Source: an uncultured Piscirickettsiaceae bacterium
GTDB lineage: Bacteria > Pseudomonadota > Gammaproteobacteria > Methylococcales > Cycloclasticaceae
Assembly (NCBI GenBank): GCA_913061075.1
Contig: CAJXSK010000006.1
Location: forward strand, 1-64,000
Length of the DNA: 64,000 nucleotides
Direction: 5' to 3'
Shown here: positions 4,286 to 48,886 of the stretch, piece by piece
Position numbering within the stretch: position 1 is the stretch's first letter
How the letters are laid out: each line of letters starts with the position of its first letter
Program-made: the position numbers and the translations under genes
The notes under the pieces: generated by a model
The model's database searches: none
Told to the model about the DNA's origin: nothing
What the model saw: the letters and a program-made list of their open reading frames with translations, nothing else

Positions 4286-4294
4286 GAGAACAAA

Positions 4295-5212: not shown

Positions 5213-5219
5213 CGCAAGG

Positions 5220-5570: not shown

Positions 5571-5657
5571 AGGCGAGCCCTGAAATTGTATATTTGTTTG
5601 AAGGCTTATTTGTGTGATGCGTTGTTTGTTCCGATCATTGAACTGGCGGTTATTTGA

Positions 5658-5854
5658 CCCCCATCCCAGCCTCCCCCCTTAAATGGGGAAGGAGTAAAGG
5701 GGGGCTCTAAACAAGCAATATTGTGTAAATAACACAGATCAAAACACATGGATTTGGTTTTAAATTACTGAGTCAGTTTGAAAGGAGCTGTATTTAGCCC
5801 GGTGTATTTTGAATTGTTCCCTCCCGCCTTTAAGAGGGAGGGCTAGGGTGGGGG
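5658..5854. repeat. C-rich/G-rich palindromic repeat, copy B
   Basis: The left end reads CCCCCATCCCAGCCTCCC and the right end GGAGGGCTAGGGTGGGGG, matching copy A (67-160) apart from a few substitutions, but with about 100 bases of interior instead of about 20. Inner hairpins include AGCC(T)CCCCCCTT paired with AAGGGGGGCT on the left and CCCTCC paired with GGAGGG on the right. It fills most of the gap between the DUF559 pseudogene and the convergent beta gene, and the right-hand hairpin may end transcription of that minus-strand operon. The rest of 5571-5888 shows nothing else. Confidence 0.75.
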
Positions 5855-5888
5855 TAAACATCAAGCGTGAGAGTAAAAAACATTTAAC

Positions 5889-7564: not shown

Positions 7565-7604
7565 TATTTTTTCCTAGGCTGAAGTTAGTAAACTATATCG
7601 ATTT

Positions 7605-7652
7605 ATCATAAAGTTACAAAGTTGATTATCATTAGAAAATGACGTAAATCAT
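7605..7652 (-). promoter_or_regulatory. FNR-like palindrome and promoter of the 7564-5889 oxygenase operon
   Basis: 7639-7652 reads ATGAC-GTAA-ATCAT, a perfect instance of the ATGAY-N4-RTCAT palindrome shared with 10309-10322 and 10865-10878. On the minus strand a TAACTT hexamer (7616-7611) is centred 32 bases from the palindrome centre, and a better TATGAT (7610-7605) 38 bases away. A second half-site, TTGAT, lies at 7622-7626. It overlaps the end of the regulator gene by one base. Binding by that regulator is inferred. Confidence 0.6.
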
Positions 7653-8368: not shown

Positions 8369-8443
8369 CTTTATGGAGTATTGAAATAATACATATAAGC
8401 TAACTATAAACTATATATTTGGGCGTTGGAATAGGAAAAATAA

Positions 8444-8488
8444 AACACCAAACACCAAACACCAAAAACGCTGTTCTTGGTGTTTGGT
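8444..8488 (-). terminator. Tandem 7-base repeat forming a 12-bp perfect hairpin
   Basis: AACACCA occurs three times in tandem (8444-8464). The last units (ACCAAACACCAA, 8454-8465) pair perfectly with TTGGTGTTTGGT at 8477-8488 around an 11-base loop. It lies just after the stop of the minus-strand alpha gene at 8496 and reads into a U-rich but interrupted tail, so it may end that operon before the regulator gene. Because the arm is built of repeats, the hairpin could slip in register. Confidence 0.55.
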
Positions 8489-8495
8489 ACAGAAG

Positions 8496-9746: not shown

Positions 9747-9756
9747 ATGTGTCTCC

Positions 9757-10242
9757 TTAAATAGGAATAACCATTAAGGTTGTGATTTTGTGGGTGTCGA
9801 AGATGGCGGAACGCTCTTTGAATTTAAGCACGCCATTATCACGCACGATAACGTCTACATAACGACCAACGTTGTACACAGTACTTTCGCCATCGTTACA
9901 GGTTTTAAACACGGCATAGTTTGATTGAACGTTAAACGTGTTGCCATCTTCAGACGTGATAACCGGGTTGCTAAGCAGGTGACGGTACCATTGAACTTGG
10001 TAAACGTTGGCGTGACGAAGCGCAGTTACGCGATCTTCTAACATGCCTCGACTGTCGCACCACATAACGGCTGTTGGCAAGCCAACTTCATGGTTTTCCC
10101 GAGGGATAATGCGATACAAACAAGAGTCAGTAAAAAAATCTGGCCAGTTTTCTAGTTTGTCGTCATCTATGCATTGAGCATAGGCGTTCAATAAATCTTC
10201 TACTTCGCTCTTTAATTCAAGCGTGATATTTGAGGCAGCCAT
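9757..10242 (-). CDS. Ring-hydroxylating oxygenase beta subunit (salicylate/anthranilate type)
   Basis: Small subunit, 161 aa, NTF2-like. It carries 'LLNAYAQCIDDDKLENWPDFF', 'YRIIPRENHEVGLPTAVMWCDSRG', 'MLEDRVTALRHANVY' and 'KFKERSAIFDTHKITTLMVIPI' in the order expected for anthranilate/salicylate oxygenase beta subunits. A CAGGAG site lies 7 bases before the ATG. It is the first gene of a beta-alpha operon, the reverse of the alpha-beta order in the plus-strand clusters. Confidence 0.88.
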   Translation of the reverse strand: MAASNITLELKSEVEDLLNAYAQCIDDDKLENWPDFFTDSCLYRIIPRENHEVGLPTAVMWCDSRGMLEDRVTALRHANVYQVQWYRHLLSNPVITSEDGNTFNVQSNYAVFKTCNDGESTVYNVGRYVDVIVRDNGVLKFKERSAIFDTHKITTLMVIPI

Positions 10243-10281
10243 GAGGTCTCCTGTAGTTGAGTGCGGTTTGGGTATAAGGCC

Positions 10282-10322
10282 AGTATAAAAGGCCCATCAG
10301 ATTAAACGATGATTCTAGTCAT
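10282..10322 (-). promoter_or_regulatory. FNR-like class II promoter of the 10242-8496 beta-alpha operon
   Basis: The palindrome at 10309-10322 is ATGAT-TCTA-GTCAT. On the minus strand a TATACT -10 box occupies 10287-10282, centred 31 bases from the palindrome centre. This places the site near -41, the position used for class II activation by CRP/FNR proteins. The inferred start is about 30 bases upstream of the beta ATG. The same distance recurs upstream of the reductase gene (19047-19087). Confidence 0.7.
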
Positions 10323-10351
10323 TAAAAATTAATTTAATAAAAAGCGTTTCT

Positions 10352-10738
10352 TTAGCTGTTATCAATAAGGTTCATTTTGCCAATGAGGTCTTGAATATCA
10401 ACATTTTTCGAATTATCGAGCAATACTGATACACGATTGATTGTGCTAACCACAGAGCCTTGGCGGCTGTGTAGGTAATAGCCATCTAGCGGGTACATAA
10501 CAGTTTTATCTTCGCGAGCGCGGTGGTAGCTCAATTGGCTAATACCCATAATGCCTAAGCCAGCAGCTTCAGAATGCGCCATTAAGCGCTCAGCACGGTC
10601 TTCTGTAATATCACCAATATATTCTGTTAAAAGAGGCGGTGAAACAGCGCCTTTTCCAGCAACAGCTTCATGCCAGCGCACTGCGCCAACAACGCCATCA
10701 ACATCTAATAAAGTACTAAAAATGACGGGTGTAGACAT
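10352..10738 (-). CDS. Small protein of unknown function, possibly roadblock/DUF2173-like
   Basis: A 128-aa soluble protein with no signal peptide or metal motif. It starts 'MSTPVIFSTLLDVDGVVGAV', has a central helix-rich part 'EDRAERLMAHSEAAGLGIMG' and a strand-rich end 'GYYLHSRQGSVVSTINRVSVLL'. The pattern of an N-terminal 'll..dGVvgA' strand-helix, a long helix and paired strands resembles roadblock/LC7 proteins of the DUF2173 kind, but I am unsure. AAGGAG precedes ATG 10738, so it is a real gene. It is divergent from the PdxA-like gene and 109 bases upstream of the beta-alpha operon, whose promoter lies in between. Confidence 0.55.
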   Translation of the reverse strand: MSTPVIFSTLLDVDGVVGAVRWHEAVAGKGAVSPPLLTEYIGDITEDRAERLMAHSEAAGLGIMGISQLSYHRAREDKTVMYPLDGYYLHSRQGSVVSTINRVSVLLDNSKNVDIQDLIGKMNLIDNS

Positions 10739-10864
10739 AAGATCTCCTTGAGTTTGTCGTTATATAAACGTGTATCTTTGAATTTAGAGGTTAGCTCAGG
10801 ACCACGTTAAAAGGCAACTGCTAAATTTGCTTCATTTCATTTGTGGGAAATGTTTAGCTTATAA

Positions 10865-10878
10865 ATGATTTAAGTCAT
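10865..10878 (+). promoter_or_regulatory. FNR-like palindrome in the divergent 10738/10951 control region
   Basis: ATGAT-TTAA-GTCAT is the third perfect copy of the ATGAY-N4-RTCAT palindrome. For the plus-strand operon starting at 10951, an AATAAT hexamer (10904-10909) is centred 35 bases away, a little further than the 31 bases at the two best sites. No convincing -10 box was seen in the minus direction, so it more likely serves the PdxA-like/alpha/alpha/beta genes. Confidence 0.6.
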
Positions 10879-10950
10879 GTTGCATTGGGTAGAAAATGAA
10901 GAGAATAATGTTAAGCTAATATTCCATAGTATTTACACATATTAAATTTG

Positions 10951-11931
10951 ATGAGTTTAAAACCAACAGTAGCAACGATGATTGGAGACCCTGCCGGCAT
11001 TGGCCCCGAAGTGGTGGCCAAGGCGTGGGCAACGGGTGAATTACACGATTATTGCCAACCTGTTTTAATTGGCAGCCAATTGGTGATGCAGCGTGCAGTT
11101 AAAGATTGCGGCTTGTCATTAAAGGTTAATAAAGTGGCGTCGGTGAAGGATATTCAAAATGACCCCGCTATTATTGATATTATCGATTCTGGGAAATTTG
11201 ATGATGAGAGCTTCAAACTAGGGCTAGATAACGAATCGTGCGGGCAAATAAGCGCCGATTGGTTAGACGAAATGGATCAGCTGGCATTAGCAGGCGAGGT
11301 AAATGCAACGGTGATGGCGCCGATCAGTTCGGTGTCGATGAAAATGGCCGGCGTGTTAGATAAAGTTATCAACATGGAGCCTGGCCATAGCTATTTATTT
11401 TTAATTAGCGGCCCGCTACGCGTTATGCACCTAACAGACCACCTGCCGTTGCGTGATGTGTGCGACTTAATTACCGCTGATCTAGTGTCAACATCCATTT
11501 CACAATTAAATAAAGCCTTGATCTCTTGGGGTATAGAAAAACCACGAATAGCGGTAGCAGGATTAAATCCGCATGCGTCGGGCAAAGAAGAAGACGAAGA
11601 AATTACTCCGGGTGTTGAGCAAGCAAAAGCACAAGGTATTAATGTTGAAGGCCCTATCGCACCAGATTCTGTTTTTAGACACTGTATAGATGGCCACTAC
11701 GACGTGGTGTTGGCGATGTTTCATGACCAAGGCCATATTGCGATTAAAACCTGGGGCTTTTCCGGTAATTGCGCGTTGATTATGGGGCCGCCGTATTTAC
11801 ATATGTCGGTCGCACACGGCACCGCGTATGATTTGGCGGGTACTGGGCAAGCCGACCATTCGATGATGTTAGAAGCGATAAAATTAACCGGAAACCTTGC
11901 CGCGGGCAATGGTTTTTTAAACAATAGGTAA
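10951..11931 (+). CDS. PdxA-family dehydrogenase, probable carboxylated cis-dihydrodiol dehydrogenase
   Basis: Metal- and NAD-dependent dehydrogenase of the 4-hydroxythreonine-4-phosphate dehydrogenase family (326 aa from ATG 10951; TTG 10948 is less likely). Signature segments are 'GDPAGIGPEV' near the N-terminus, 'LNPHASGKEE' and the metal-binding 'MFHDQGHIAIK'. PdxA relatives include TphB, which oxidises and decarboxylates the terephthalate dihydrodiol. Here the gene sits 12 bases before a salicylate-type oxygenase alpha. I therefore infer that it handles a carboxylated dihydrodiol rather than vitamin B6 synthesis; a B6 role is not excluded. Confidence 0.85.
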   Translation: MSLKPTVATMIGDPAGIGPEVVAKAWATGELHDYCQPVLIGSQLVMQRAVKDCGLSLKVNKVASVKDIQNDPAIIDIIDSGKFDDESFKLGLDNESCGQISADWLDEMDQLALAGEVNATVMAPISSVSMKMAGVLDKVINMEPGHSYLFLISGPLRVMHLTDHLPLRDVCDLITADLVSTSISQLNKALISWGIEKPRIAVAGLNPHASGKEEDEEITPGVEQAKAQGINVEGPIAPDSVFRHCIDGHYDVVLAMFHDQGHIAIKTWGFSGNCALIMGPPYLHMSVAHGTAYDLAGTGQADHSMMLEAIKLTGNLAAGNGFLNNR

Positions 11932-11943
11932 ACAGGAGTATTT

Positions 11944-13200
11944 ATGAACGCTCAGCAACAAGTAGACAGCATCAACATTAATGGCAACAGCGCACCCTTT
12001 TCTGTTTATTTAGACGAAGACGTTTATAAACTAGAGCAAGAAAAATTATACCGTGGGCCGGTTTGGTCTTACCTAGGTTTAGATGCAGAAGTACCTAACG
12101 CCGGTGATTACAAGTCTACCTTTGTGGGAGATACGCCTGTTGTTATGACACGTGATGAAGCAGGTAATATTCATGCGTGGGTTAATCGTTGTGCGCATAA
12201 AGGCGCGCAAGTGTGTAGAGAGCGCTTTGGGCACTCTGATGATGGTGCGTTTACCTGTGTTTACCATCAGTGGGCGTATGACGCAAAAGGTGATTTAAAA
12301 GGCGTGCCGTTTCGCCGCGGTTTAAAAGGTGCGGGCGGTTACGAAAAAGATTTTGATATGGGCGCGCATGGTTTGCGCCAGCTAAAGGTGGCAACTATTG
12401 CTCAGATGGTGTTTGCCAGTTTTGATGACAGTACACCCGACTTAGAAACATTTTTAGGCGAAAAAATGTGTGCGAATATTCATCGCATTATGCACAAGCC
12501 AATTAAAGTAATTGGCTACGCGCGCCAGTATATGAAGGGCAATTGGAAGCTGTATTCAGAAAATAGCAGAGATGCCTACCATGGTGGCCTATTGCACTTG
12601 TTTTACCCAACGTTTGGCATTTATCGCCAAAGCCAAGAGAGCGAAGGCGTGTTAAATGAGATCGGTTACCATAATTACTTTAATGTGTCCGCGCCTGCGC
12701 CGGCAAAAAAAGTTGATTATGAAGGCTTTAAAGAAGAAGCGAACCGTGAGATGCAAGGCCCACATGAGCTAAAGGATCCGCGAGTACTTAAATTTGTACC
12801 GGAACGAGATGATAGAGTTGGCTTAAGCATTCAGTCTTTATTCCCATCGGTGGTGTTACAGCAAATTCAAAACACCTTAGCGGCTCGGCAAGTGTTGCCA
12901 AAAAGCGTTAATGAAACAGAATTGGTCTGGACATACTTTGGTTTTGAGGATGATAATGAAGAAATGGATCAGCACCGCTTGCGAAATATTAATTTAGTAG
13001 GCCCCGCGGGGTTTATTTCAATGGAAGATGGCGAGGCAGTAGAGCTTTGCCAAAACGGTGTTCATCGCGATGAAACTGAACGCTCATTTATAGAGATGGG
13101 CGGCACGGAAGCTGCGCAACACACAAGCCCAATAGGCATGGATGAAAATGCCGTACGTGGGTTTTGGAAAGGTTATAGAAAAGTGATGACAAGCAGTTAA
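11944..13200 (+). CDS. Ring-hydroxylating oxygenase alpha subunit without an adjacent own beta gene
   Basis: Large subunit of 418 aa, paralogous to the 8496-9746 protein. Rieske ligands are C83-x-H85 ('CAHKG') and C105-x2-H108 ('CVYHQWAYDAKGDL'); the iron ligands are D210, H213 and H218 in 'RDAYHGGLLHLF'. It is of the salicylate/anthranilate type, so an aromatic acid is likely. It is followed 16 bases on by a naphthalene-type alpha and only then a beta, so it must borrow a beta subunit, perhaps that at 9757, or work as an alpha-only oligomer. ACAGGAGT precedes the ATG. Confidence 0.9.
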   Translation: MNAQQQVDSININGNSAPFSVYLDEDVYKLEQEKLYRGPVWSYLGLDAEVPNAGDYKSTFVGDTPVVMTRDEAGNIHAWVNRCAHKGAQVCRERFGHSDDGAFTCVYHQWAYDAKGDLKGVPFRRGLKGAGGYEKDFDMGAHGLRQLKVATIAQMVFASFDDSTPDLETFLGEKMCANIHRIMHKPIKVIGYARQYMKGNWKLYSENSRDAYHGGLLHLFYPTFGIYRQSQESEGVLNEIGYHNYFNVSAPAPAKKVDYEGFKEEANREMQGPHELKDPRVLKFVPERDDRVGLSIQSLFPSVVLQQIQNTLAARQVLPKSVNETELVWTYFGFEDDNEEMDQHRLRNINLVGPAGFISMEDGEAVELCQNGVHRDETERSFIEMGGTEAAQHTSPIGMDENAVRGFWKGYRKVMTSS

Positions 13201-13216
13201 ACAATAAGGTGTAGAG

Positions 13217-14581
13217 ATGATAGATTCAACAGAATTGGTCGATACGAAAAATTCGACTCAAGCAAAAAAGATTTTTGGTGACCAAGACGTTTACGAACAA
13301 GAGTTAGAGCGAATTTTTGGTCGCTGTTGGTTGTTTTTGGCGCATGAATGCATGCTTGAAAAAACAGGCGACTTTATTACAACAACAATGGCAGAAGATC
13401 CGGTGGTGGTTACCCGTGCTAAAGATGGCTCCATAAACGCATTTATCAATTCTTGTAGCCACCGCGGTAACCGTGTGTGTACGGCAGATTCAGGCAATTC
13501 AAAATCCTTTGTTTGTAATTATCACGGCTGGGTATTTGGGTCTGATGGCTCGTTGGTTGATGTGCCGTTAGAAGAAACCTGCTACCACGGAGATATTGAT
13601 AAGAGTAAATTTGGGCTTCCTAAAATTCGTGTAGAAAGCTATAGAGGGTTTGTCTTCGGTTGTTTTGATGACGACGCACCAAGTTTAAATGACTATCTTG
13701 GTGATTGGGGCTGGTATTTAGATACCTTTATGGTGGGTGCAGGCGAGGGCATGGAGTTAGTTGGCCCGCCCATGAAATCAACCTTAAAATGCAACTGGAA
13801 AGTACCCGCTGAAAATTTTGTTGGCGACGCGTACCACGTGGGTTGGACGCACGCGGCAGCACTTGAAGTGCTTGGTGGTGAGCTGGCCATGTTGGCAGGT
13901 AATACCGCTGAAATGCCATATGACCAATTGGGTCTACAAGTGACAACGCGCCATGGTCATGGTTTTGGTGTTATTCGACAAGCCGCGGCATCCATCCATG
14001 TAAAGCGTGAGGGCTTCGATAAATTTAATCAAGAAATGATTCCTAAAGTGGCTGAAAAGTTAGGCCAACCTAGGGCAGACTTATTTGATGGACACTGGAA
14101 TTGTACGACCTTTCCAAGTTGCTCATTCCTGTATGGCACAAACATTTTTAAAGTCTGGCACCCAAGAGGGCCGAATGAGATTGAAGTGTGGTCGTATGTG
14201 TTGGTGCATAAAAGTATGGACGATGCGACTAAAAAAGAGGTGGTAAAGCAAGCGGTTAGAAGCTTTGGAACAGCGGGCACCTTGGAAAGTGATGATGGCG
14301 ATAATATGGTGAATGCTACCTCTATTAATAAAGGTGCCCAAGCTCGAAAAAACCGAATGAGTTCAACGATGGCTCAGGGGCATGAAGGGCCGCACCCAGA
14401 TTACCCAGGCATCGTCGGTTCAAGCTTTGTGGGTGAAACGTCGTACCGTGGTTTTTACCGTTTTTATCAAGAAATAATGAATGCAGACAGTTGGCAAGCG
14501 ATTCATGAAAAAGATGATGAATGGGATGATATGTTCGAGAACAAAGATTTTTGGAAGAATAAATTAGCGGGGGATAAATAA
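13217..14581 (+). CDS. PAH (naphthalene-type) dioxygenase alpha subunit
   Basis: Large subunit, 454 aa, with the closest resemblance in this window to naphthalene/phenanthrene dioxygenases. The active-site segment 'NFVGDAYHVGWTHAA' matches the NahAc pattern, with D204, H207 and H212 as bridging and iron ligands. Rieske ligands are C80-x-H82 and C100-x2-H103. The C-terminal 'LESDDGDN' supplies the remaining Asp. It is coupled to the beta gene 1 base later and followed by the extradiol dioxygenase, so it is the best candidate for initial PAH attack. Exact substrate range is inferred. Confidence 0.93.
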   Translation: MIDSTELVDTKNSTQAKKIFGDQDVYEQELERIFGRCWLFLAHECMLEKTGDFITTTMAEDPVVVTRAKDGSINAFINSCSHRGNRVCTADSGNSKSFVCNYHGWVFGSDGSLVDVPLEETCYHGDIDKSKFGLPKIRVESYRGFVFGCFDDDAPSLNDYLGDWGWYLDTFMVGAGEGMELVGPPMKSTLKCNWKVPAENFVGDAYHVGWTHAAALEVLGGELAMLAGNTAEMPYDQLGLQVTTRHGHGFGVIRQAAASIHVKREGFDKFNQEMIPKVAEKLGQPRADLFDGHWNCTTFPSCSFLYGTNIFKVWHPRGPNEIEVWSYVLVHKSMDDATKKEVVKQAVRSFGTAGTLESDDGDNMVNATSINKGAQARKNRMSSTMAQGHEGPHPDYPGIVGSSFVGETSYRGFYRFYQEIMNADSWQAIHEKDDEWDDMFENKDFWKNKLAGDK

Positions 14582-19132: not shown

Positions 19133-20155
19133 ATGGCTAGTTTTAATGTAAAAATCAGCGAACAAGAGTTTGAGTTTAAATGCGAAGAAGGCGATACAAT
19201 TTTACGTGCGGCGCTTCGTGCAGGGCTTGGTATGCCGTATGAGTGTAACTCGGGCGGTTGTGGTAGCTGTAAGGTTGAAATTCTTAACGGCGAGATTAAT
19301 GATGTTTGGCCAGATGCGCCAGGCCTATCGCCACGTGATATTAAAAAAGGCCGCAAACTAAGCTGCCAATGTATTCCAACGGCTGATTGTGAAATTAAGG
19401 TGCGCTTGAACCATGAGGCAATGCCAGTTCATAAGCCCATTAAATCAAAAGCCACGTTATTCCAAATTAATACATTAACGGATGATATGGCGGAATTTTG
19501 TTTTAAAACAGAACATGCAGCTAATTTTGAGCCAGGCCAATTCGCTTTATTAGACTTCCCTGGGGTTGTTGGTTCACGTGGATACTCAATGAGTAATTTG
19601 CCAAATGATGCAGGTGAGTGGAATTTCATTATTAAAAAAATGCCTGGTGGTAGTGCGACGGGTAAACTGTTCGATGAATATAAAGTAGGCGACGAAATAA
19701 TTGTTGATGGCCCTTATGGCTTGGCGTATTTAAAACCTGAAATTCCTCGCGATATTGTTTGTGTCGGTGGTGGTTCGGGCTTGTCGCCAGAAATGTCTAT
19801 CATTAAAGCAGCAGCAAAAGATCCGCGATTAGAAGATCGTAATATTTATTTATTCTACGGTGGTAGAGCGCCTAAAGACATTTGCACGCCAGCGCTTATT
19901 GAAGCTGATGATGATATGCGAGGTAGAATTAAAAACTTTAATGCAGTGTCAGATGTTGATGCAGCAAAAGCAGCGGGTTGGGATGGTGAAGTAGGCTTTA
20001 TTCATGAATTGTTGGCCAAAACATTAGGTGATAAACTACCTGAGCATGAGTTTTATTTCTGTGGCCCACCACCAATGACCGATGCGTTAACACGTATGTT
20101 GATGATGGAATATAAAGTACCATTTGACCAAATTCATTATGATCGTTTTTATTGA
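19133..20155 (+). CDS. Oxygenase electron-transfer reductase (2Fe-2S ferredoxin/FAD/NAD domains)
   Basis: NAD(P)H reductase (340 aa) feeding Rieske ferredoxin and oxygenases. The N-terminal plant-type ferredoxin domain has C38-x4-C43-x2-C46 and C78. The FAD domain has 'RGYSMSN', and the NAD domain has 'GGGSGLSP' and C-terminal 'FYFCGPPPM'. This domain order is that of NahAa-type reductases. It is the only such reductase in the window while there are six oxygenase alphas, so it is probably shared. It starts a small operon with the ferredoxin and the isomerase and has its own FNR-like promoter. Confidence 0.93.
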   Translation: MASFNVKISEQEFEFKCEEGDTILRAALRAGLGMPYECNSGGCGSCKVEILNGEINDVWPDAPGLSPRDIKKGRKLSCQCIPTADCEIKVRLNHEAMPVHKPIKSKATLFQINTLTDDMAEFCFKTEHAANFEPGQFALLDFPGVVGSRGYSMSNLPNDAGEWNFIIKKMPGGSATGKLFDEYKVGDEIIVDGPYGLAYLKPEIPRDIVCVGGGSGLSPEMSIIKAAAKDPRLEDRNIYLFYGGRAPKDICTPALIEADDDMRGRIKNFNAVSDVDAAKAAGWDGEVGFIHELLAKTLGDKLPEHEFYFCGPPPMTDALTRMLMMEYKVPFDQIHYDRFY

Positions 20156-20193: not shown

Positions 20194-20511
20194 ATGAGTA
20201 ATTTAGTAACGCTGTGTAAAGCAGACGATGTAAAAGAAGAAGCGCCGATTTCAGTAACACCAGAAGGTTTTCCAGGCTTGGCAGTGTACGAGTTTGAAGG
20301 TGAATACTTCGTAACAGATAACCTTTGCACACATGGCATGGCGATGTTGACAGACGGTTACCAAGATGGCGAAGAAATTGAATGCCCATTCCATGGCGGT
20401 GCATTTTCAATAAAAACAGGTGAAGCGACGGCTTTTCCTTGTCAGATAGCAATTAAAAGCTATCCAGTAACGCTTGAAGACGGCAATATTTGCATTCCAG
20501 CTGCTGAGTAA
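20194..20511 (+). CDS. Rieske-type ferredoxin of the aromatic dioxygenase system
   Basis: A 105-aa soluble [2Fe-2S] Rieske ferredoxin passing electrons from the reductase to the oxygenase. Cluster ligands lie in 'CTHGMAML' and 'CPFHGGAF'; the length and the 'TGEATAFPCQIAIKSYPV' segment match NahAb/BphF-type ferredoxins. It follows the reductase by 38 bases and precedes the isomerase by 8. Confidence 0.93.
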   Translation: MSNLVTLCKADDVKEEAPISVTPEGFPGLAVYEFEGEYFVTDNLCTHGMAMLTDGYQDGEEIECPFHGGAFSIKTGEATAFPCQIAIKSYPVTLEDGNICIPAAE

Positions 20512-41004: not shown

Positions 41005-41862
41005 TTAATCTAGTTGGCCATCGAAAAAGAATTTAACAAGTTGGTTGAATGCGTTTTTTTGCTCAATCTGAATCCAATGCCCACAATGATGAAAAACGTG
41101 TAGCTGGGCATTGGGTACCTTTTCTGCTAAATGGTAGGCGTTATTCAGGGGAATAAAGTAATCTTCACGCGCATGGGTGACTAACATGGAGTGAGGTATA
41201 GAGGCTAATTCAGCATCGGATAATACAAAGGCATCAATGGCATCTTTTGTGCCGCCGGAAAACATCGCAACGAATTGCTTACGCACCTTATCTTGCATAA
41301 CGTTTAGATAACGCTCGGCTGCTATTTTTTGAACGTCATCCCCAAGAAGTGAAGGATTGTGTAGAAATTTTTGTATTAAGAAAAGCAGGTTTTCCTCAGA
41401 CGGGTCATTATAAAACTCCCAGCCTTTAGTTAGGCCTTCAGTCGGTTTAAAAGGTGCGCCAACAGGGCCCATCAGTAACGCTTTTTTGAAGCGGTCTGGG
41501 TGCCTGTTAAGTAGATGTAACGTCACGCCCCCGCCCATTGAATTGCCTATAATATGTGCATGCTCGATACCTTTTGCATCCAATAAGTCTATCTGTTGCT
41601 GCACCCAAATATCGATCCACGCTTTCGTGCCATTAGGTGGGTTATTGTGCTGGCTTAGGCCAAAACCGGCGATGTCCGGTGCTATACAGTGATAGTGCGG
41701 TGCTAAAAAGGGCAAAGCAAACTGCCAATTTGACATGGCGTTAGCGCCTGGGCCAGAACCATGCAGTAATAAAATTGCTGTTGCATTCTCTTCACCAACT
41801 TCGTGAAAAGATGTATTGAAACTGCCGGTTTTAATTGATGACATTTGCATAGTGGAATCCAT
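41005..41862 (-). CDS. Meta-cleavage product hydrolase (alpha/beta hydrolase, XylF/TodF type)
   Basis: A 285-aa alpha/beta hydrolase cleaving C-C bonds of ring-fission products such as 2-hydroxymuconic semialdehydes. The oxyanion segment is 'LLHGSGPGANAMSNW', the nucleophile S108 lies in 'GNSMGGG', the acid in 'THAREDYFIPL' and the histidine in 'HHCGHW'. It is divergent from the membrane hydroxylase gene and may belong to that route. Start choice among M1, M5 and M7 is uncertain. Confidence 0.85.
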   Translation of the reverse strand: MDSTMQMSSIKTGSFNTSFHEVGEENATAILLLHGSGPGANAMSNWQFALPFLAPHYHCIAPDIAGFGLSQHNNPPNGTKAWIDIWVQQQIDLLDAKGIEHAHIIGNSMGGGVTLHLLNRHPDRFKKALLMGPVGAPFKPTEGLTKGWEFYNDPSEENLLFLIQKFLHNPSLLGDDVQKIAAERYLNVMQDKVRKQFVAMFSGGTKDAIDAFVLSDAELASIPHSMLVTHAREDYFIPLNNAYHLAEKVPNAQLHVFHHCGHWIQIEQKNAFNQLVKFFFDGQLD

Positions 41863-41978: not shown

Positions 41979-43172
41979 ATGAGTGCTGTAGTGCAAATAA
42001 AGCGTCAGGTGAGTATTGTTACAAAATACACGACGTTACCGCTGTTATTTTTTTCAATCACGCCTGTATTGGCTTATCTTGCAGGCGGTGGTGTTTGGTA
42101 TTGGCTGACAGTTTTTGTATTGTTGGCGAGCATCGCGCTCGACCCTATTGTGGGTGACGATTCTATTAACGCCCCGGCGGATCTAGAAAAGGAATTAGAA
42201 AACAGTAATTTCTTCCGTGTCATGCTGTGGGCATACGTTCCGATACAGTTTTTAATGACGCTGTTTTGTTATTCGCTGATCACTCAAACGCCAATGGCTA
42301 TTTTTGTCACGTTAGGGGTGGATTACGTGCCTTTGAGTTGGGGTGAGATTATTGGTTTGTCTTTATCTTTGTCGTTAGTAACTGGATTTGGAGCAACCAT
42401 TGGGCACGAGCTTTGTCACCACGGTAACGCCTTCGATCGATTTATGGGGCAAGCAATCCTTACGCCGATTAGTATGGCGGATTTCTTTGTGTATCATAAT
42501 TTCCATCACCATTTAACGGTGGCAACACCAGAAGACCATGCAACAGCGCCGTATGGTGAAAATTTTTGGCGTTTTGCCTTACGTAGCACAATAAAGAAAT
42601 CAATTTGTGCCTGGCAGGTAGAGGCAAAACGGTTGGCTCGTAAAGGGTTGAGTTGGCTTAATATAGATAATCGAATGGTTAAAATTACGGTAGCTCAAGT
42701 TGCTTGGTTATCTTTATTGTTGATTCTTTTTGGTTGGATGACGATTCCCTTATTTATTTTGCAATATATCTTTCCCAGAATGCTTCTGGCGACGGCAGAC
42801 TTTGCTGAACATTATGGTTTGATGAGAAAACAATTACCTGATGGTAGCTACGAAAAGGTCCGTCCAGAACACGCGTGGGATGACAGCGCTATTATTAGTA
42901 GTTTTTATATGTGTCAGATTGATCGGCACTCAGACCATCATGCTAATGTGGGTCGGCCTTATCAAATACTACGGGTGATGGACAAGGCACCTCGCTTGCC
43001 TTACGGGTATCTAAATATATTATTTGTGGTGATGGTGCCGTCAGCATGGCGAAAATTGATGCACCCGATTATCGAGGAGTTTTATGACACAGCAGATATT
43101 ATTCCTTATGCCTTGCCGAATACATTACCCGAAAGGTTTGTTGAACGAGCAGTGATGGCGGAGATTAAATAA
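41979..43172 (+). CDS. AlkB/XylM-family membrane di-iron hydroxylase
   Basis: A 397-aa inner-membrane monooxygenase with several membrane helices and three histidine boxes: H143-E-L-C-H147-H148, H173-N-F-H-H-H178, and R316-H317-S-D-H320-H321-A. 'VATPEDHATAPYGE' follows box two as in alkane and xylene hydroxylases. Box two lacks the usual leading Glu ('YHNFHHH'), so substrate use may differ. It needs a rubredoxin or reductase that is not encoded here. It begins a plus-strand run to 48603. The likely role is terminal or methyl-group hydroxylation of an alkyl or alkyl-aromatic compound. Confidence 0.85.
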   Translation: MSAVVQIKRQVSIVTKYTTLPLLFFSITPVLAYLAGGGVWYWLTVFVLLASIALDPIVGDDSINAPADLEKELENSNFFRVMLWAYVPIQFLMTLFCYSLITQTPMAIFVTLGVDYVPLSWGEIIGLSLSLSLVTGFGATIGHELCHHGNAFDRFMGQAILTPISMADFFVYHNFHHHLTVATPEDHATAPYGENFWRFALRSTIKKSICAWQVEAKRLARKGLSWLNIDNRMVKITVAQVAWLSLLLILFGWMTIPLFILQYIFPRMLLATADFAEHYGLMRKQLPDGSYEKVRPEHAWDDSAIISSFYMCQIDRHSDHHANVGRPYQILRVMDKAPRLPYGYLNILFVVMVPSAWRKLMHPIIEEFYDTADIIPYALPNTLPERFVERAVMAEIK

Positions 43173-43175
43173 ACG

Positions 43176-43640
43176 ATGTTTTCTTGGCTTGAGTTAAAAG
43201 TACCCCCACCATTCGTGGCGTTAATTGCTGCGGGTTTGATGTGGTTTTTAAGCAGCAAAATAGGCGTTGCGAGTGTCGATGTGCCCTATAAAACTGTACT
43301 ATGTAGCTTATTGGTCGGGTTGGGCTTAGTTGTGGATTTTTCGGCGCTATGGCAGTTTAGACAAGCAAAAACAACGGTTAACCCGGTACGGCCTAAGAAC
43401 GCATCAGCATTGGTGACAACTGGCATATATCAATACACACGAAATCCGATGTACGTCGGTAATTTTATTTTTTTAACGGCTTATTTGATTTGGCTGGGCT
43501 CTCCGTATAACGTGTTTTGTCTTGCGTTGTATGTTTTGTATATGAATAAATTTCAAATTAAGCCCGAAGAGCGTGTTTTATTGGGCATGTTTGATGGCGA
43601 GTATGCAGATTTTTGCGCCAACGTTAGGCGATGGGTCTAG
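43176..43640 (+). CDS. Isoprenylcysteine carboxyl methyltransferase-like membrane protein
   Basis: A 154-aa protein of the ICMT/PEMT family with four membrane helices. The signature is 'LVTTGIYQYTRNPMYVGNF' followed by 'KPEERVLLGMFDGEYADFCANVRRWV'. Bacterial members are SAM-dependent methyltransferases of mostly unknown substrate. It lies 3 bases after the hydroxylase, so it is co-transcribed and perhaps acts on its product or on a membrane lipid. Confidence 0.85.
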   Translation: MFSWLELKVPPPFVALIAAGLMWFLSSKIGVASVDVPYKTVLCSLLVGLGLVVDFSALWQFRQAKTTVNPVRPKNASALVTTGIYQYTRNPMYVGNFIFLTAYLIWLGSPYNVFCLALYVLYMNKFQIKPEERVLLGMFDGEYADFCANVRRWV

Positions 43641-43691
43641 GTTGAGTAGCTTGAAGAGTAAACTAAAAAGAAACAATAGGGAGTGACCACC

Positions 43692-44933
43692 GTGTCAACA
43701 ATTGATTACGAACACCTAATACAAGAAGACAAGGTACATGGGTCTCTTTATACCGATGAAGCTATCTACGAAGATGAAATAGAGAAAATTTTCTACAGCA
43801 GCTGGGTGTTTATTGGCCATGAAAGCGAAATAAAAAAACGCGGTGATTATGTAACGCGCGATATTGGCCGTTCATCGGTCATTATGGTGCGTGGAAAAGA
43901 CGAGGATATTCAAGTCATCGTCAACCGCTGCCAACACCGTGGCAACTTATTATGTAATGAATCACAAGGGAATAAGCGAAATTTCACCTGCCCTTACCAC
44001 GGTTGGGTATTTGGTTTAAATGGTGATCTGTTGGATGTGTCTTACCCCGGTGGTTTTGATAGGCCATTAGAAGAGCTAAATCTGGAAGTGTTAGTGACGG
44101 ACAGCTATCGTGGTTTTGTTTTTGCTAGCTTTAAAGAACCAACGATCAGTTTTGATGACTATTTAGGTAATGGTAAAAAGCTAATAGATCGTTCCTGTAA
44201 TATGGCGCCAAATGGAAAAATTGACCTAAAAGGTGGCTGGATTCGCCAACATTTTGATGCTAATTGGAAAATGTTGCCTGAGAACGATACCGATGGTTAT
44301 CACGTTAATTATGTGCACCAGTCGTTTGTGCGTGCGATTGATTCGCAATACGGTGATTTTGTGGGCGCTGAAGATAGCATAAAAGGTGTTATCAAAAACT
44401 GGGGGAATGGCCATACGGAAATAGACTTTGCTCCGGGTTACACAAAAACCTTAGATTGGTTAGGGTCAACGCCTGAAAAAGCTAAGTCGTATGTTGATAG
44501 TATGCGTGAAGCCTATGGGCAAGAAAAAGCAGATCAAATGTTATACGACGGGCCAGCGCACGCGTGCATATTCCCCAACTTGTTTTTGGCAGAAATGAAC
44601 ATTGTTATATTTCAACCGACCGGTGCCCATTCAGCGGTGCAATGGAGTACGCCTATGTTTTTAGAGGGTGCGCCAGAATTGGACTTTAAATTACTCCGCC
44701 AAAGTGAAGGTGCTTTAGGCCCAGCCTCATTTTTGTTAGCAGATGATGCATCCATTGCCGAACGTGCTCAAAAAGCGCTTGGCGCAGGTACGCCATGGTG
44801 TGATTTAAGCCGTGGTTTAAATCGTGAAACTGAAGATACCGACGGCGTAAAAACATCGCATATGACAGATGAAACATCTAACCGTGGGTTCTGGCACCAT
44901 TACCGAGACGTCATGATGGGAGAACTGTCATGA
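43692..44933 (+). CDS. Ring-hydroxylating oxygenase alpha subunit (sixth)
   Basis: Rieske oxygenase large subunit, 413 aa from GTG 43692. I prefer this to GTG 43683 because AGGGAG lies 8 bases before it. Rieske ligands are C80-x-H82 and C100-x2-H103; the iron site is D201-G-Y-H204 with H209 ('DTDGYHVNYVHQ'). The C-terminal 'LLADDASIAERAQ' should supply the last Asp. It is unlike both the PAH and the salicylate-type alphas in this window. The alpha stop overlaps the beta start by 4 bases. The substrate may be the acid or CoA-linked product of the neighbouring genes. Confidence 0.9.
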   Translation: MSTIDYEHLIQEDKVHGSLYTDEAIYEDEIEKIFYSSWVFIGHESEIKKRGDYVTRDIGRSSVIMVRGKDEDIQVIVNRCQHRGNLLCNESQGNKRNFTCPYHGWVFGLNGDLLDVSYPGGFDRPLEELNLEVLVTDSYRGFVFASFKEPTISFDDYLGNGKKLIDRSCNMAPNGKIDLKGGWIRQHFDANWKMLPENDTDGYHVNYVHQSFVRAIDSQYGDFVGAEDSIKGVIKNWGNGHTEIDFAPGYTKTLDWLGSTPEKAKSYVDSMREAYGQEKADQMLYDGPAHACIFPNLFLAEMNIVIFQPTGAHSAVQWSTPMFLEGAPELDFKLLRQSEGALGPASFLLADDASIAERAQKALGAGTPWCDLSRGLNRETEDTDGVKTSHMTDETSNRGFWHHYRDVMMGELS

Positions 44934-45424
44934 ACCAGCCTGTGTCAGAAGCAATAGCAAAACAATTAGAAGCCTTTATTATTCAGGAAGCAAAGCTAGC
45001 TGATGAAGGACAATATGAAGCGTGGGAAGGGCTGTGGGCGGATGATGCCGTGTATTGGGTGCCATTAAAAGAGGGCGATGACCCTACTCAGCAGGTATCG
45101 CATTTGTATGATAATCGAACACGCATTGCGACCCGCATACGCCAATTAATGACGGGTTACCGCTACAGCCAATTGCCTATTTCGGGTATGCGCCGGTTGA
45201 TTTCAAATTATGAGTTTTTTGCTGAAGATGATAAACGTTACAGAGTCGAAGCGAATTTCTTTTTACCAGAATACTCGATTCAGTCGATTCATGATTTCAG
45301 AATTTGGTCGGGTCGCTACGTATACACCTTAAGTGCTAAGGACGATGGTTTTCAAATTCATACGAAAAAAGTATTGTTGGTGAATGGGACAGAGCCCGTC
45401 CCAACAATGGCATTTTTAATTTAG
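44930..45424 (+). CDS. Ring-hydroxylating oxygenase beta subunit (sixth system)
   Basis: Small subunit, 164 aa, NTF2-like. 'EAFIIQEAKLADEGQYEAWEGLWADDAVYWVP' and C-terminal 'TKKVLLVNGTEPVPTMAFLI' are typical. It is coupled by ATGA overlap to the alpha gene and followed by the thiolase-like gene 4 bases later. Confidence 0.88.
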   Translation: MNQPVSEAIAKQLEAFIIQEAKLADEGQYEAWEGLWADDAVYWVPLKEGDDPTQQVSHLYDNRTRIATRIRQLMTGYRYSQLPISGMRRLISNYEFFAEDDKRYRVEANFFLPEYSIQSIHDFRIWSGRYVYTLSAKDDGFQIHTKKVLLVNGTEPVPTMAFLI

Positions 45425-45428
45425 GGCA

Positions 45429-46610
45429 ATGACTAAAAAGTCAGCACTATCAGCAATAGTAGGACTTGGTATGACCGAGTTCACACGGGATTATCAAGTG
45501 CCAGCTTGGCAACTAGCCACGCAAGCGATTGGTTCAGCGATTGAAGATGCGGGATTAAAACACGCGGATATTGATGGCTTATTGCTGAACAAAAGCCCTT
45601 TGGCCGAGCTAAAAGATTTCCCCATGGAAATTCAAGACTACGCCGGTTTAAGCAACTTGAGTTTGCTGAGTGTGGTGGAAGCGGAAGGCAGTTCGATGGT
45701 GCAAACCATTCAACAAGCGACAATGGCGATTCAATCTGGCATGGCAACAAAAATTGTGTGTGTTTTCGCTGATACGCCGATACAAGCCAATGTGTCTTCG
45801 GGCGATGCATTTGCAGTAGCGATGCCAATGATGGGTCACCTTGGTATTGAAATAGCCAATGGCTTTTACACCCCAATTGCGGCTTATGCGATGGCTGCGC
45901 AGCGTTATTTGGCGGCGCATAACAGAACGACAGATGATTTGGGCGCGGTGGCTGTTTCAAACAGGCGCTGGGCAGAATTAAACGAGTTGGCAAAATTACG
46001 TAAACCGCTAACTATGGAACAATACCGAGCCGCACCTTTTTTAATTGAACCATTAAGAATGCTCGATTGCGCTTACCCAGTCAATGGTGCGATTGCCGTG
46101 GTGGTGACGGGTATAGAACAGGCTAAACAATGTCCTCAACCGCCGGCATATATTTATGGAATGGGTCAAGGTCATGCGGGAAATATTAACCGTCGTGGGC
46201 ACCAGCCAGAAATTGATACAGGTGCAAAACAAGCAGGCGAAATAGCCTACAACATGGCCGGTATAACAGCGGCGGATATAAATGCTTGCCAGTTTTACGA
46301 TGCGTTTAGCATTTCTACGTTAATAAATTTGGAGCTTTATGGCTTGTGCGAAACAGGACAAGCCGGTGAGTTTGTTCAAGCAGGTGAAACATCGCCCGGT
46401 GGGTCGCTACCAGTTAATACAGGTGGTGGACATTTGTCGGGATATTATTTACAAGGCGCAACGCCAGTGTCTGAAGCTATTATGCAAATCAGGCAGCAGG
46501 CAACTGGGCGGCAATTAGAAAAGTTAGAGCATATGCTGGTAACGGGTTACGGCGGCAGAATGCAGTTTCACGCAGCGTTGATTATGGGTCAACAGGAGGC
46601 GCGTCAATGA
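45429..46610 (+). CDS. Thiolase-superfamily protein lacking the nucleophilic cysteine (SCP-x/Ltp-like)
   Basis: A 393-aa thiolase-fold protein ('SAIVGLGMTEFTRDYQVPAWQLA' at the N-terminus). The usual active-site cysteine position reads 'EAEGSSMVQT', so it is unlikely to be a classical Claisen thiolase. It keeps 'CQFYDAFSIS' and 'NTGGGHLSGYYLQGATPVSEA', the pattern of lipid-transfer-protein-like members. In steroid side-chain degradation, Ltp2 pairs with a DUF35 protein as a retro-aldolase. Its stop overlaps the DUF35 gene start by 4 bases here, so the same type of complex is likely. The activity is inferred. Confidence 0.82.
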   Translation: MTKKSALSAIVGLGMTEFTRDYQVPAWQLATQAIGSAIEDAGLKHADIDGLLLNKSPLAELKDFPMEIQDYAGLSNLSLLSVVEAEGSSMVQTIQQATMAIQSGMATKIVCVFADTPIQANVSSGDAFAVAMPMMGHLGIEIANGFYTPIAAYAMAAQRYLAAHNRTTDDLGAVAVSNRRWAELNELAKLRKPLTMEQYRAAPFLIEPLRMLDCAYPVNGAIAVVVTGIEQAKQCPQPPAYIYGMGQGHAGNINRRGHQPEIDTGAKQAGEIAYNMAGITAADINACQFYDAFSISTLINLELYGLCETGQAGEFVQAGETSPGGSLPVNTGGGHLSGYYLQGATPVSEAIMQIRQQATGRQLEKLEHMLVTGYGGRMQFHAALIMGQQEARQ

Positions 46611-47020
46611 AGTTTGCCCAAGCCGATGTTATTTGGCCAGATATTGAAGAGGTGGCTCGTCCTTTTTATGAAGGGATGCAGCAAAAAAAGGTGATGATTC
46701 AGCAGTGTTCAGCCTGTTCAACCCACTTACCACCAGCCCAAATTGTTTGCGACCATTGCGGTAGCGATAAATTGGACTGGCTAGAAGCCAATGGGGCGGG
46801 TGAGATTTATAGTTATGTTGTTTATCACCGAAGCTTTCACCCGTTTTTTGACGATAAATTACCGTATACCGTCGCCCTAGTGGAATTAGGCGAAGGCCCA
46901 CGTTTGCAGGCGCTATTTTATGGCGATGATTGTGTCGTTGGGATGAAGGTTCAGCCACTATTTACAGACGTTGCTGGCAAACATACTTTATTGGCTTATC
47001 AACCCGCGGAGAAAGATTAA
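46607..47020 (+). CDS. DUF35 OB-fold/zinc-ribbon acyl-CoA-associated protein
   Basis: A 137-aa partner protein. The N-terminal helix 'ARPFYEGMQQKKVMIQQCSAC' leads into a rubredoxin-like zinc ribbon with C-x2-C ... C-x2-C ('CSAC' and 'CDHC'), followed by an OB-fold ('GEIYSYVVYHRSFHPFF', 'VALVELGEGPRLQA'). DUF35 proteins hold the acyl-CoA for thiolase-like partners. It overlaps both neighbours (4 bases with the thiolase, 1 base with the ligase). Confidence 0.88.
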   Translation: MKFAQADVIWPDIEEVARPFYEGMQQKKVMIQQCSACSTHLPPAQIVCDHCGSDKLDWLEANGAGEIYSYVVYHRSFHPFFDDKLPYTVALVELGEGPRLQALFYGDDCVVGMKVQPLFTDVAGKHTLLAYQPAEKD

Positions 47021-48603
47021 TGGATACGATGCCTAGAGATTTTGTAACGCGTTGTGCAAAAGCGCTGCCGAGAAAAGTAGCGTTTTATGATGGCGATAGA
47101 CTAAGCACGTGGAGCGAATTAAACCAACGGGCTAATCAGTTTGCCACTGCGCTGCAATCATTAGGCGTTAATAAAGGGGACGTGGTAGCGGTGTTGGCGC
47201 ACGAACACATAGAAGTGTACGAGCATTTTCACGCTTGTTTAAAACTTGGTACGCCACGGGTGGGTATCAATTGGCGGTTTTCCGAGAAAGAAGTGAAATA
47301 CGTTGTGGATGACGCTAATGTACGGGTTATTCTAGTTCAACAAAACTGTATTGAATTAGTTCAAGGCTTGCTGGAAACATTCAACGCAAGCGGGGTGCTT
47401 ATTATTGGTTTTGGTGGTGAGCATGGCTTGCCGTTGGATTACGAAACGTTGATGTCAGAACAGCTTAATAGTTCGCCAAATTTTCCTGTTTTAGTTGAAG
47501 AAGATGTGGTTGCCATCAGTTACACGTCGGGCACAACAGGCTCACCAAAAGGCGCGGTGCTTTCGCAAAAAGCGTTAAGGGAAGCGATGGTGCATACCGT
47601 GCTGAATATCGGTTTAACGTCAGAAGACGTTTGGTTTGCACCGACTTCCTCCGCTTGGATTACCTTCGTATTGGTGTCGATGAATTGCGTGAATGGTATG
47701 CCATCTGTTTTACCGAATGGTGACTTTGAACCGCATCGTTTCTTAGAATTTGTGAATAAATATAAGGTGACCAGTACGATTATGGTGCCGCTGATTATGC
47801 GTCGTTTGATTGAAATAATCGAAGATGAAGGCATCACGTTGCCAAGTTTACGGCTGATTACATTTGGCTCATCACCCGCCACGCCACAACTTATTCGCAA
47901 AGCAGATGAAGTATTCAATTGCGGCTTAGCCCAGCTTTATGGCGTGACGGAAGCAACCGGCGGTTGGGTTACCATTATGTCGCCGGAAGATACCAAGCGA
48001 GGTTTAGCAGGTGAGGAGCATTTGCTTAAATCATGTGGTCGGCCATTTCTACACTTTGATATAGAAATACGTGATGATAATAACAGCGTTTTTGCAGCCA
48101 ATACCGGTGGTGAAATTTGGTTAAAGTCTGACACCTTGATGACCAAATACCTGGGTTTAGAAGAACAGACAAAAGATGCTCTGCAAGAAGGTTGGTTACA
48201 AACTAACGATATGGGGTATTTGGACGACGAAGGTTTTTTGTACCTAACCGATAGAAAAAATAACCTGATTATTACTGGCTCCGCGAATGTATTCCCTAGC
48301 ATGGTTGAAAATGTACTCGACGAACACCCGCAAATTAGAGAAGTAGCTGTTGTCGGTGTACCACATCCAGAGTGGGACGAAGCGGTCGTCGCGGTGATTA
48401 TTCCTCATGATGTAGACGCGTTTAATCTTGAAGAAATTATCGCCTTTAGCAAATCAAAAATGGCAAAGTTTGAAGTCCCCAAAGCGTTAGTATTGGTTGA
48501 TGATTTTCCTAAGGGCTTAACAGGAAAAGTGCTGAAGAAAGATATTCAAGCGATGTTTAAAGACGGTCGCTTACAAGTACCGTGGGAACTGCCCGCTAGC
48601 TAG
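47020..48603 (+). CDS. Acyl-CoA synthetase (AMP-forming)
   Basis: A 527-aa ANL-superfamily ligase activating a carboxylic acid to its CoA ester. The AMP motif is '[17 protein letters not shown]', then '[13 protein letters not shown]', '[23 protein letters not shown]' and the C-terminal lysine in '[10 protein letters not shown]'. ATG 47020 overlaps the DUF35 stop (TAATG) and gives the normal N-terminus 'MDTMPRDFV'; the longer upstream reading overlaps the previous gene. It completes an oxygenase/thiolase/DUF35/ligase set. The substrate could be an aromatic or branched acid. Confidence 0.9.
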
Positions 48604-48886
48604 CCGCGATACGTTCCATTTGTTTAGCCAAAGAAAAATCACGTTCGGTAATGCCGCCGGCTTCGTGGGTGGTTAAATCCACCACTACTTTTTTATACAC
48701 GTTAAACCACTCGGGGTGATGATTGGCTTTCTCGGCTAATATCGCTGCTTGGGTCATAAAGCCAAACGCCTCAACAAAATTGGCGAATATAAATTCACGG
48801 TGAAGCTTCCCGTCTTCGATAGACCATTCGCCGAATTCATCGGCAAAAGCAGAAACTTCTTCCTGTGGAGCAATGGGTATAGTCAT
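48596..48886 (-). CDS. phhB: Pterin-4a-carbinolamine dehydratase
   Basis: A 96-aa enzyme recycling the pterin cofactor of aromatic amino acid hydroxylases. The signature is '[24 protein letters not shown]' followed by '[21 protein letters not shown]', with the E-x4-H-H-P-x-W catalytic pattern. No phenylalanine hydroxylase gene is adjacent. The 3' end overlaps the convergent ligase gene by 8 bases. Confidence 0.92.

Follow-up and report, generated by a model that had tools for sequence, protein, structure and literature searches.

An operon of seven closely packed genes in the window (64,000 nucleotides of contig CAJXSK010000006.1 from an uncultured Piscirickettsiaceae bacterium), located at positions 41979-48603 of the forward strand, probably constitutes an ipf-type arylalkanoyl-CoA deacylation module with a side-chain hydroxylase of its own, directed at alkyl-aromatic hydrocarbons, although we hold this reading on balance rather than firmly. 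What the sequence itself shows is the gene set and its conservation, the catalytic residues in IpfD, the separate clade to which the hydroxylase belongs, and a genome in which no rubredoxin was detected.

Organization of the operon

The first gene encodes an AlkB-family membrane di-iron hydroxylase of 397 aa (41979..43172; PF00487, 5e-24), and is followed by a small ICMT/PEMT-type membrane methyltransferase of 154 aa (43176..43640; PF04191, 3.5e-16; PF04140, 1e-7). The remaining five genes, also on the forward strand, code for an IpfA-like Rieske oxygenase alpha subunit of 416 aa with a GTG start (43683..44933; PF00355 and PF00848), an IpfB-like oxygenase beta subunit of 164 aa (44930..45424; PF00866, 7e-21), an IpfD-like thiolase-fold retro-aldolase of 393 aa, whose catalytic residues were aligned with those of Ltp2 (45429..46610), an IpfE-like DUF35 protein of 137 aa with a ChsH2-type zinc ribbon and an OB fold (46607..47020; PF12172 and PF01796), and an IpfF-like acyl-CoA ligase of 527 aa (47020..48603; PF00501, 6e-70). 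The ATG at 47020 was taken as the start of the ligase, the mechanical ORF beginning with a TTG at 46930. Calculated from the coordinates and the sequence with this start, the spacings in operon order are +3, +42, -4, +4, -4, and -1 base, in agreement with the several overlaps of 1-4 bases reported in the initial annotation. All genes named there were found at this location and on this strand, and its list lacked only the seventh gene, that of the oxygenase beta subunit. A sequence scan gave 14 promoter-like sites (18.9 expected) and 14 terminator-like sites (9.6 expected), counts that do not enter the argument. The search for the same gene set elsewhere, which the annotation had proposed, found content, order, and tight packing again in other genomes, and this recurrence indicates that the operon is more than a chance arrangement.

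The ipfABDEF core

The last five genes, from the oxygenase alpha subunit to the ligase, correspond to ipfABDEF, in the same order, of Sphingomonas Ibu-2 and Rhizorhabdus wittichii MPO218 (pIBU218), with identities to the pIBU218 proteins of 37-55% (IpfA 55%, IpfB 46%, IpfD 49%, IpfE 37% over 109 columns, and IpfF 42%) and with the same catalytic tyrosines in IpfD. For both IpfA and IpfD, pIBU218 was within the top three plasmid matches. The functions of the ipf genes in the ibuprofen and arylacetate upper pathway have been described (PMC9195938, and the accessible text of PMC6063337), and the latter text also reports that Ibu-2 deacylates 2-phenylpropionic and tolylacetic acids, and records ipfABDEF clusters in five Cycloclasticus genomes. 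By homology, the five genes form the upper pathway set for ibuprofen and arylacetates, already known from Cycloclasticus. The statement that the whole set could not be matched to a known pathway consequently holds for the first two genes of the operon, but not for these five.

The operon differs from pIBU218 in its front part: no AlkB/XylM-family gene was found in the 19 kb of the plasmid examined, and no methyltransferase is annotated in front, whereas ferredoxin and FAD-dependent oxidoreductase genes, presumably of the ipfH/I type, are annotated in that stretch instead. The Cycloclasticus clusters of PMC6063337 presumably represent this locus in related genomes of the genus; in the accessible text they are read as a potential for ibuprofen degradation, with no mention of the hydroxylase. 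For the AlkB-family hydroxylase in front of ipfA no earlier description was found: in the openly accessible text searched, no paper was seen to link it to ipf.

The front hydroxylase and its distribution

The hydroxylase matched PDB entry 8f6t, "Alkane 1-monooxygenase", at 7e-67, and both of its solved relatives found are alkane monooxygenases. It shares the fold family and the histidines with canonical AlkB, nine columns (143, 147, 173, 177, 178, 278, 317, 320, and 321) being His in all 26 aligned rows, but it forms a clade of its own, apart from both canonical AlkB and XylM (support 100/100, versus 100/98 for the AlkB branch, sampled with six rows, four of them, including AlkB of G015, with a rubredoxin gene next door). 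XylM of pWW0 belongs to the same family, and side-chain hydroxylation is proposed here as well; however, the hydroxylase does not group with XylM, to which it is 21-25% identical, and has no XylA-type gene adjacent. By sequence it is nearer to AlkB, which acts on alkanes, a point against a role on alkyl-aromatics. A single-sequence structure model of the hydroxylase was discarded (mean pLDDT of 42).

Orthologues of the hydroxylase occur in 11 of the 18 genomes of the genus, its own included, the nearest one being that of G012 (89%). Ten of these 11 carry an IpfD orthologue (at least 69% identity), the eleventh ending at a contig edge, and none of the seven genomes without the hydroxylase does. 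Hence, one contig-edge case aside, no genome of the genus has one of the two genes without the other, a co-occurrence that is not independent of descent. IpfA adjoins the hydroxylase in 10 of the 11 carriers. The same hydroxylase clade is found divergent from ipfA in three other gammaproteobacterial genomes (L023, L024, and G374); in L023 and G374 the two genes are separated by one for a catechol 2,3-dioxygenase-like protein. In G279 and G167, which belong to the family of G374 and have the ipf core, genes of the hydroxylase clade lie away from ipf, with an aldehyde dehydrogenase gene next to one of the two copies. Hydroxylase genes were present, when all reading frames were considered, in the GC-rich stretches L125-L128.

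The main alternative is that the substrates of the ipf core are arylalkanoic acids imported ready-made, as in ibuprofen degraders, and that the AlkB-family gene encodes an n-alkane hydroxylase having only the promoter in common with it. The solved alkane monooxygenases agree with this explanation, as do 29 of 38 ipf-core loci that have no such hydroxylase within the fetched stretches, from which it follows that the core works without it. Also in its favour, two genomes of the genus, G012 and G015, both carrying the hydroxylase, have rubredoxin genes, on other contigs than the operon; G374 likewise has rubredoxin. Rubredoxin was, however, undetected in 16 of the 18 genomes of the genus, and in none of the ten that are at least 90% complete was it found; for the genome of the operon itself, the search with PF00301 gave no match, with a control positive in 7 of 14 and the reservation that a divergent rubredoxin could be missed. 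As the hydroxylase also lies outside the branch of the six AlkB rows and co-occurs with IpfD in the genus, we consider this alternative unlikely.

The methyltransferase gene is missing in three of ten decidable members of the genus, and its plasmid relatives have metal-resistance genes as neighbours in the records examined (2 of 164), a context from which no role of the methyltransferase can be read. Divergent from the operon is a gene for a meta-cleavage-product hydrolase of the HsaD/BphD type (41005..41862, reverse strand; NF045632 HsaD, 1.8e-52; TIGR03343 BphD, 2e-42; both below the cut-off), which takes the same position in 10 of the 11 members of the genus having the hydroxylase. It is a probable lower-pathway partner of the operon. 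Hydrolases of this type suit 3-substituted catechols better than the 4-alkylcatechol to be expected from para-substituted substrates, which counts against the preferred reading.

Electron donors and XylM-type paralogues

The operon itself contains no gene for an alcohol or aldehyde dehydrogenase, a reductase, or a ferredoxin, which likewise speaks against the preferred reading. Unlinked candidates on the forward strand of the window are a XylA-like reductase with Fer2, FAD, and NAD domains assigned by Pfam (19133..20155; 32% identity to XylA of pWW0), which may serve as an electron donor, and a Rieske-type ferredoxin of 105 aa (20194..20511; PF00355, 2e-17), a possible donor for the IpfAB-like oxygenase. 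The genome also holds XylM-type paralogues, of which the C3 paralogue sits beside its own reductase. These paralogues and the XylA-like reductase, along with the comparison to XylM made in the initial annotation, would be in line with an attack on methyl-aromatics such as methyl-PAHs, the hydroxylase leading in XylM fashion to an aryl alcohol and then an aromatic acid. On chemical grounds, though, the thioester of an aryl carboxyl-CoA sits directly on the ring, leaving no intervening carbon for a retro-aldol cleavage by IpfDE, and the C3 paralogue beside its reductase better fills the XylM-type role, which makes this explanation improbable.

IpfD and its DUF35 partner

IpfD is related to Ltp2 (structure 6ok1, 2e-50), and its Y290 and Y340 align with Tyr294 and Tyr344 of the T. 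curvata enzyme. G87 and A292 occupy the positions of the thiolase catalytic cysteines, so that the nucleophilic Cys of an SCP2-type thiolase is missing; the description of IpfD as a cysteine-less thiolase is accordingly right for the catalytic positions, but not literally, other cysteines being present. Y290, Y340, and G87 are kept in 37 of 37 IpfD rows, whereas in a paralogue from this genome the second Tyr is replaced by His. The missing thiolase Cys and the presence of both Ltp2 tyrosines point to a chemistry in which the substrate is activated with CoA, its ring is dioxygenated, and a catechol is released by retro-aldol cleavage. A TAG flagged in the IpfD matches of G001, G002, and G007 is the gene's own stop, overrun by the match, as seen from the ORF ends.

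The thiolase fold and the DUF35 partner are common to IpfD/E, Ltp2/ChsH2-DUF35, and Sal/Shy, with the Tyr base of the YDxF motif and the second Tyr as in Ltp2. The motif itself is YDAF, as against YDHF in Ltp2, whose His is thus replaced by Ala, and YDCY in Sal. The DUF35 protein carries the zinc ribbon and OB fold only and stands alone, no MaoC hydratase domain being found in it or among the Pfam matches of the operon. The expected substrate of IpfD/E, a ring diol of an arylalkanoyl-CoA, likewise differs from those of Ltp2 and Sal/Shy, which are steroid aldolases. The parallel to steroid-type retro-aldolases drawn in the initial annotation thus stands at the level of the enzyme, by the tyrosine pair, and fails at the hydratase domain. 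A pathway for steroid, bile-acid, or resin-acid side chains would account for the Ltp2-like aldolase and the best score of the divergent hydrolase to HsaD, but is very improbable: every gene of the five-gene set has its counterpart in ipf, the operon has no MaoC hydratase, and the window is Cycloclasticus-like, six of its seven nearest named relatives being loci titled Cycloclasticus, a PAH-degrading genus.

Proposed pathway

For the preferred reading, in which the deacylation module is preceded by a dedicated side-chain hydroxylase, the following sequence of reactions may be suggested. The AlkB-family enzyme would hydroxylate an alkyl side chain, e.g. ethyl or isopropyl, at its terminus, and the alcohol would be converted to an arylacetic or 2-arylpropionic acid by unlinked dehydrogenases. 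IpfF would then form the CoA thioester, IpfAB would dioxygenate the ring at the carbon bearing the side chain and its neighbour, and IpfD/IpfE would cleave the resulting beta-hydroxyacyl-CoA by a retro-aldol reaction into acetyl- or propionyl-CoA and a catechol, to be processed by an extradiol dioxygenase and presumably the divergent hydrolase. The chemistry of the third to fifth steps, taken by itself, is very likely as drawn, by analogy with published work on ibuprofen degraders, whereas we infer the first, second, and last steps, the substrate, and the electron donor. The outline given in the initial annotation, with hydroxylation of an alkyl group, activation with CoA, dioxygenation of the ring, and a retro-aldol cleavage that removes the side chain, fits the evidence.

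The phenylacetyl-CoA epoxidase (paa) route was rejected as a candidate: a PF05138 search for PaaA/PaaC, with four controls positive and the E. coli control negative, gave no match in the genome. With regard to the fate of released propionyl-CoA, prpB is above the cut-off in the genome, the only mutase match is isobutyryl-CoA mutase IcmF, and the single PF03972 protein matches no NCBIfam model at 1e-40.

Implications

More tentatively, the ipf-linked AlkB clade might be a dedicated, rubredoxin-independent aryl-alkyl hydroxylase that together with ipfABDEF makes up a complete CoA-dependent route from the alkyl-aromatics of oil to catechols, ibuprofen degradation being a later offshoot of an older petroleum pathway. 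In the accessible text of PMC11409719, alkB in non-DWH Cycloclasticus is listed under non-gaseous n-alkanes, and in that of PMC9535955 alkB/M is termed rubredoxin-dependent, with an alkB cluster holding homologues from Immundisolibacter and Cycloclasticus. If our reading is true, alkB-based surveys may be taking an aryl side-chain hydroxylase for a sign of alkane degradation, and, provided that this clade is among the genes counted, the "alkB" evidence for alkane use by Cycloclasticus and Immundisolibacter would be a misreading. The reading, if true, would also provide a gene-level hypothesis for the removal of alkyl side chains from oil aromatics by marine PAH degraders, and would suggest that genes familiar from the breakdown of a drug have their natural origin in the use of hydrocarbons.

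Organisation of the operon and its ipf core

The packed operon at 41979-48603 that the initial annotation had pointed out was confirmed: seven plus-strand genes follow one another with gaps or overlaps of +3, +42, -4, +4, -4 and -1 bases, the last value being based on ATG at 47020 as the start of the IpfF-like ligase gene. Their Pfam families agree with that annotation, namely FA_desaturase (AlkB/XylM superfamily), PEMT/ICMT methyltransferase, Rieske oxygenase alpha subunit, oxygenase beta subunit, thiolase-like protein, DUF35 (ChsH2-type) and AMP-binding ligase; all the genes listed earlier are present, but the beta subunit had been missing from the list. On the opposite strand, a pterin-4a-carbinolamine dehydratase gene (48596-48886) meets the ligase gene tail to tail, the two 3' ends overlapping by 8 bases.

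The genome comprises 2.26 Mb in 20 contigs and contains 11 matches to the alpha subunit of the operon. A stretch of about 12 kb at 2427-14581 contains five more Rieske-domain oxygenase genes and, in their midst, a PdxA-like gene; a BphC-like gene follows shortly behind the stretch. When IpfA was compared with the named genome collection, the best matches came from seven loci at 73-92% identity, of which six bear the title Cycloclasticus and the seventh 'Methylococcaceae bacterium UBA975'; the window was taken to be Cycloclasticus.

Judged by sequence, the last five genes are of a known kind: ipfA, B, D, E and F, in the same order as on the ibuprofen plasmid pIBU218 of Rhizorhabdus wittichii MPO218, with protein identities of 55% (A), 46% (B), 49% (D), 37% (E, over 109 columns) and 42% (F). 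According to PMC9195938, the ligase of the ibuprofen pathway forms the CoA ester, the dioxygenase converts it to the dihydrodiol, and the retro-aldolase finally frees propionyl-CoA and 4-isobutylcatechol. The ipfABDEF genes have been reported from five Cycloclasticus genomes and read as ibuprofen potential (PMC6063337), a report repeated in PMC10004696. Since the ipf core is known and already reported in Cycloclasticus, a characterised operon of the same content exists for part of the set, and the earlier statement that no known pathway matches fails for genes 3-7. It stands for the front end: in the literature searched, the hydroxylase and its clade were not found described together with the ipf core.

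Catalytic residues of IpfD

Judged by its residues, the IpfD thiolase-like protein is an aldolase. In an alignment with thiolase 6esq, the cysteine, which we take to be the nucleophile, corresponds to G87 of IpfD, and the HDCF motif to YDAF. Tyr294 and Tyr344 of Ltp2 (6ok1), named as catalytic in PMC12329534, align with Y290 and Y340 (positions counted by eye on the alignment), which supports the suggestion that the thiolase/DUF35 pair acts as a retro-aldolase. G87, Y290 and Y340 are invariant in 37 IpfD rows, that is, 35 of the 38 loci with an IpfD match (three with <330 residues were dropped), the window and pIBU218. The oxyanion-hole His296 of Ltp2 is replaced by Ala in the window protein. 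An IpfD paralogue on another contig of the same genome (C12) has His where the second Tyr stands.

Distribution of the hydroxylase and the ipf genes

Hydroxylase orthologues (69-100% identity) were found in 11 of the 18 genomes of the genus, own genome included, and IpfD orthologues (69% or more) in ten of these 11, where contig ends truncate three of the IpfD genes; in the remaining one, the operon runs off the contig end. The other seven genomes contain neither the hydroxylase nor an IpfD orthologue, their best IpfD relatives reaching at most 36%. IpfA adjoins the hydroxylase in 10/11 genomes, and the divergent HsaD/BphD-type hydrolase gene (41005-41862, minus strand) is likewise kept in 10/11. 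The methyltransferase gene was found in seven of ten decidable cases and is thus accessory.

A survey of named loci, partly overlapping the genus survey as some loci come from the same genomes, covered 79 IpfA-like loci. In 38 of these, an IpfD match scoring 230 bits or more lies within 6 kb, and a ligase is present as well in 32 of the 38. The 41 loci without such a match, some ending near ipfA, were excluded from the hydroxylase count. An AlkB-family gene is present in nine of the 38: seven Cycloclasticus-type loci and two others, titled Gammaproteobacteria bacterium (L023) and Immundisolibacteraceae bacterium (L024). A 26-member AlkB-family profile, which includes several of these loci, recovered the same nine among the 79 and none further. 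At least 3 kb of upstream sequence is available for 26 of the 29 loci lacking the gene, so contig ends do not explain its absence there. The pairing of hydroxylase and ipf genes recurs in the genus, L023, L024 and genome G374; 29/38 ipf loci are without the hydroxylase in the stretch covered.

Hydroxylase clade and candidate electron donors

A tree built from 26 sequences unites the hydroxylases linked to ipf (Cycloclasticus, L023, L024 and G374) and two paralogues from genome G279 in one clade (100/100). Six AlkB-branch rows form a separate group (100/98), and the two groups are joined (96/95), which places the ipf-linked clade nearer AlkB than XylM. A rubredoxin gene adjoins four of the six AlkB-branch rows; none is annotated alongside the other two, for which short stretches are covered. 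Among own-genome paralogues, that on contig C3 groups with XylM (100/98), and those on C17 and C2 fall on the XylM side with weaker support.

Four of 369 sampled genomes of the class match the hydroxylase at 1e-80 or better: own genome and three of family f152, which we infer to be Immundisolibacteraceae from its likeness to L024. In one of the three, G374, the hydroxylase gene and ipfA point away from each other and flank a catechol 2,3-dioxygenase-like gene. G279 and G167 carry the hydroxylase gene apart from their ipf cluster, and one of its two copies adjoins an aldehyde dehydrogenase gene. Since the clade includes unlinked members, the hydroxylase-ipf linkage may have originated on one or two occasions. 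At the G279 and G167 loci (L161, L162), ipfF is followed by another Rieske alpha gene and a short ORF; L022, L023 and L024 show this pair too.

Rubredoxin (PF00301) has no match in own genome nor in any of the ten genus genomes of at least 90% completeness; matches occur in two of the 18, G012 and G015. Both also bear the hydroxylase, on contigs other than those of the rubredoxins, which counts against a rubredoxin-free reading. In f152, no match was found in G279 or G167 and one in G374. The AlkB-rubredoxin-aldehyde dehydrogenase cluster of G015 (L141, contig C41), its AlkB in the canonical branch, is a useful positive control. Candidate donors are XylA-like reductases on contig C3 (39% identity to pWW0 XylA) and at 19133-20155 in the window (32%). 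On contig C3, outside the window, the XylM-type paralogue is directly followed by a XylA/BenC-like reductase (L135:7631-9829), likely a true XylMA pair.

Proposed pathway

In the proposed pathway, the AlkB-family enzyme would hydroxylate an aromatic side chain, unlinked dehydrogenases would oxidise the alcohol, the acid would be ligated to CoA, the ring would be dioxygenated at the carbon bearing the side chain, and retro-aldol cleavage would free a catechol. Three points count against this account: none of the seven operon genes encodes a dehydrogenase, an HsaD/BphD-type hydrolase would fit 3-substituted catechols better, and the hydroxylase is closer in kinship to alkane hydroxylases.

In own genome, prpB scores above its cut-off, so propionyl-CoA released could be used; PaaA and PaaC were not found there, and arylacetates seemingly lack that route. 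Contig C1 encodes a fused isobutyryl-CoA mutase IcmF (L150:5652-8927; 1915 bits, cut-off 1500) after an acyl-CoA synthetase, which suggests that the bacterium uses isobutyrate; breakdown of isopropyl-aromatics could yield this acid.

Side-chain hydroxylation followed by ipf-type deacylation to catechols would be the simplest account of the facts. Because retro-aldol cleavage requires that a carbon separate the ring from the thioester, on chemical reasoning ethyl, longer or branched chains would be expected as substrates over methyl.
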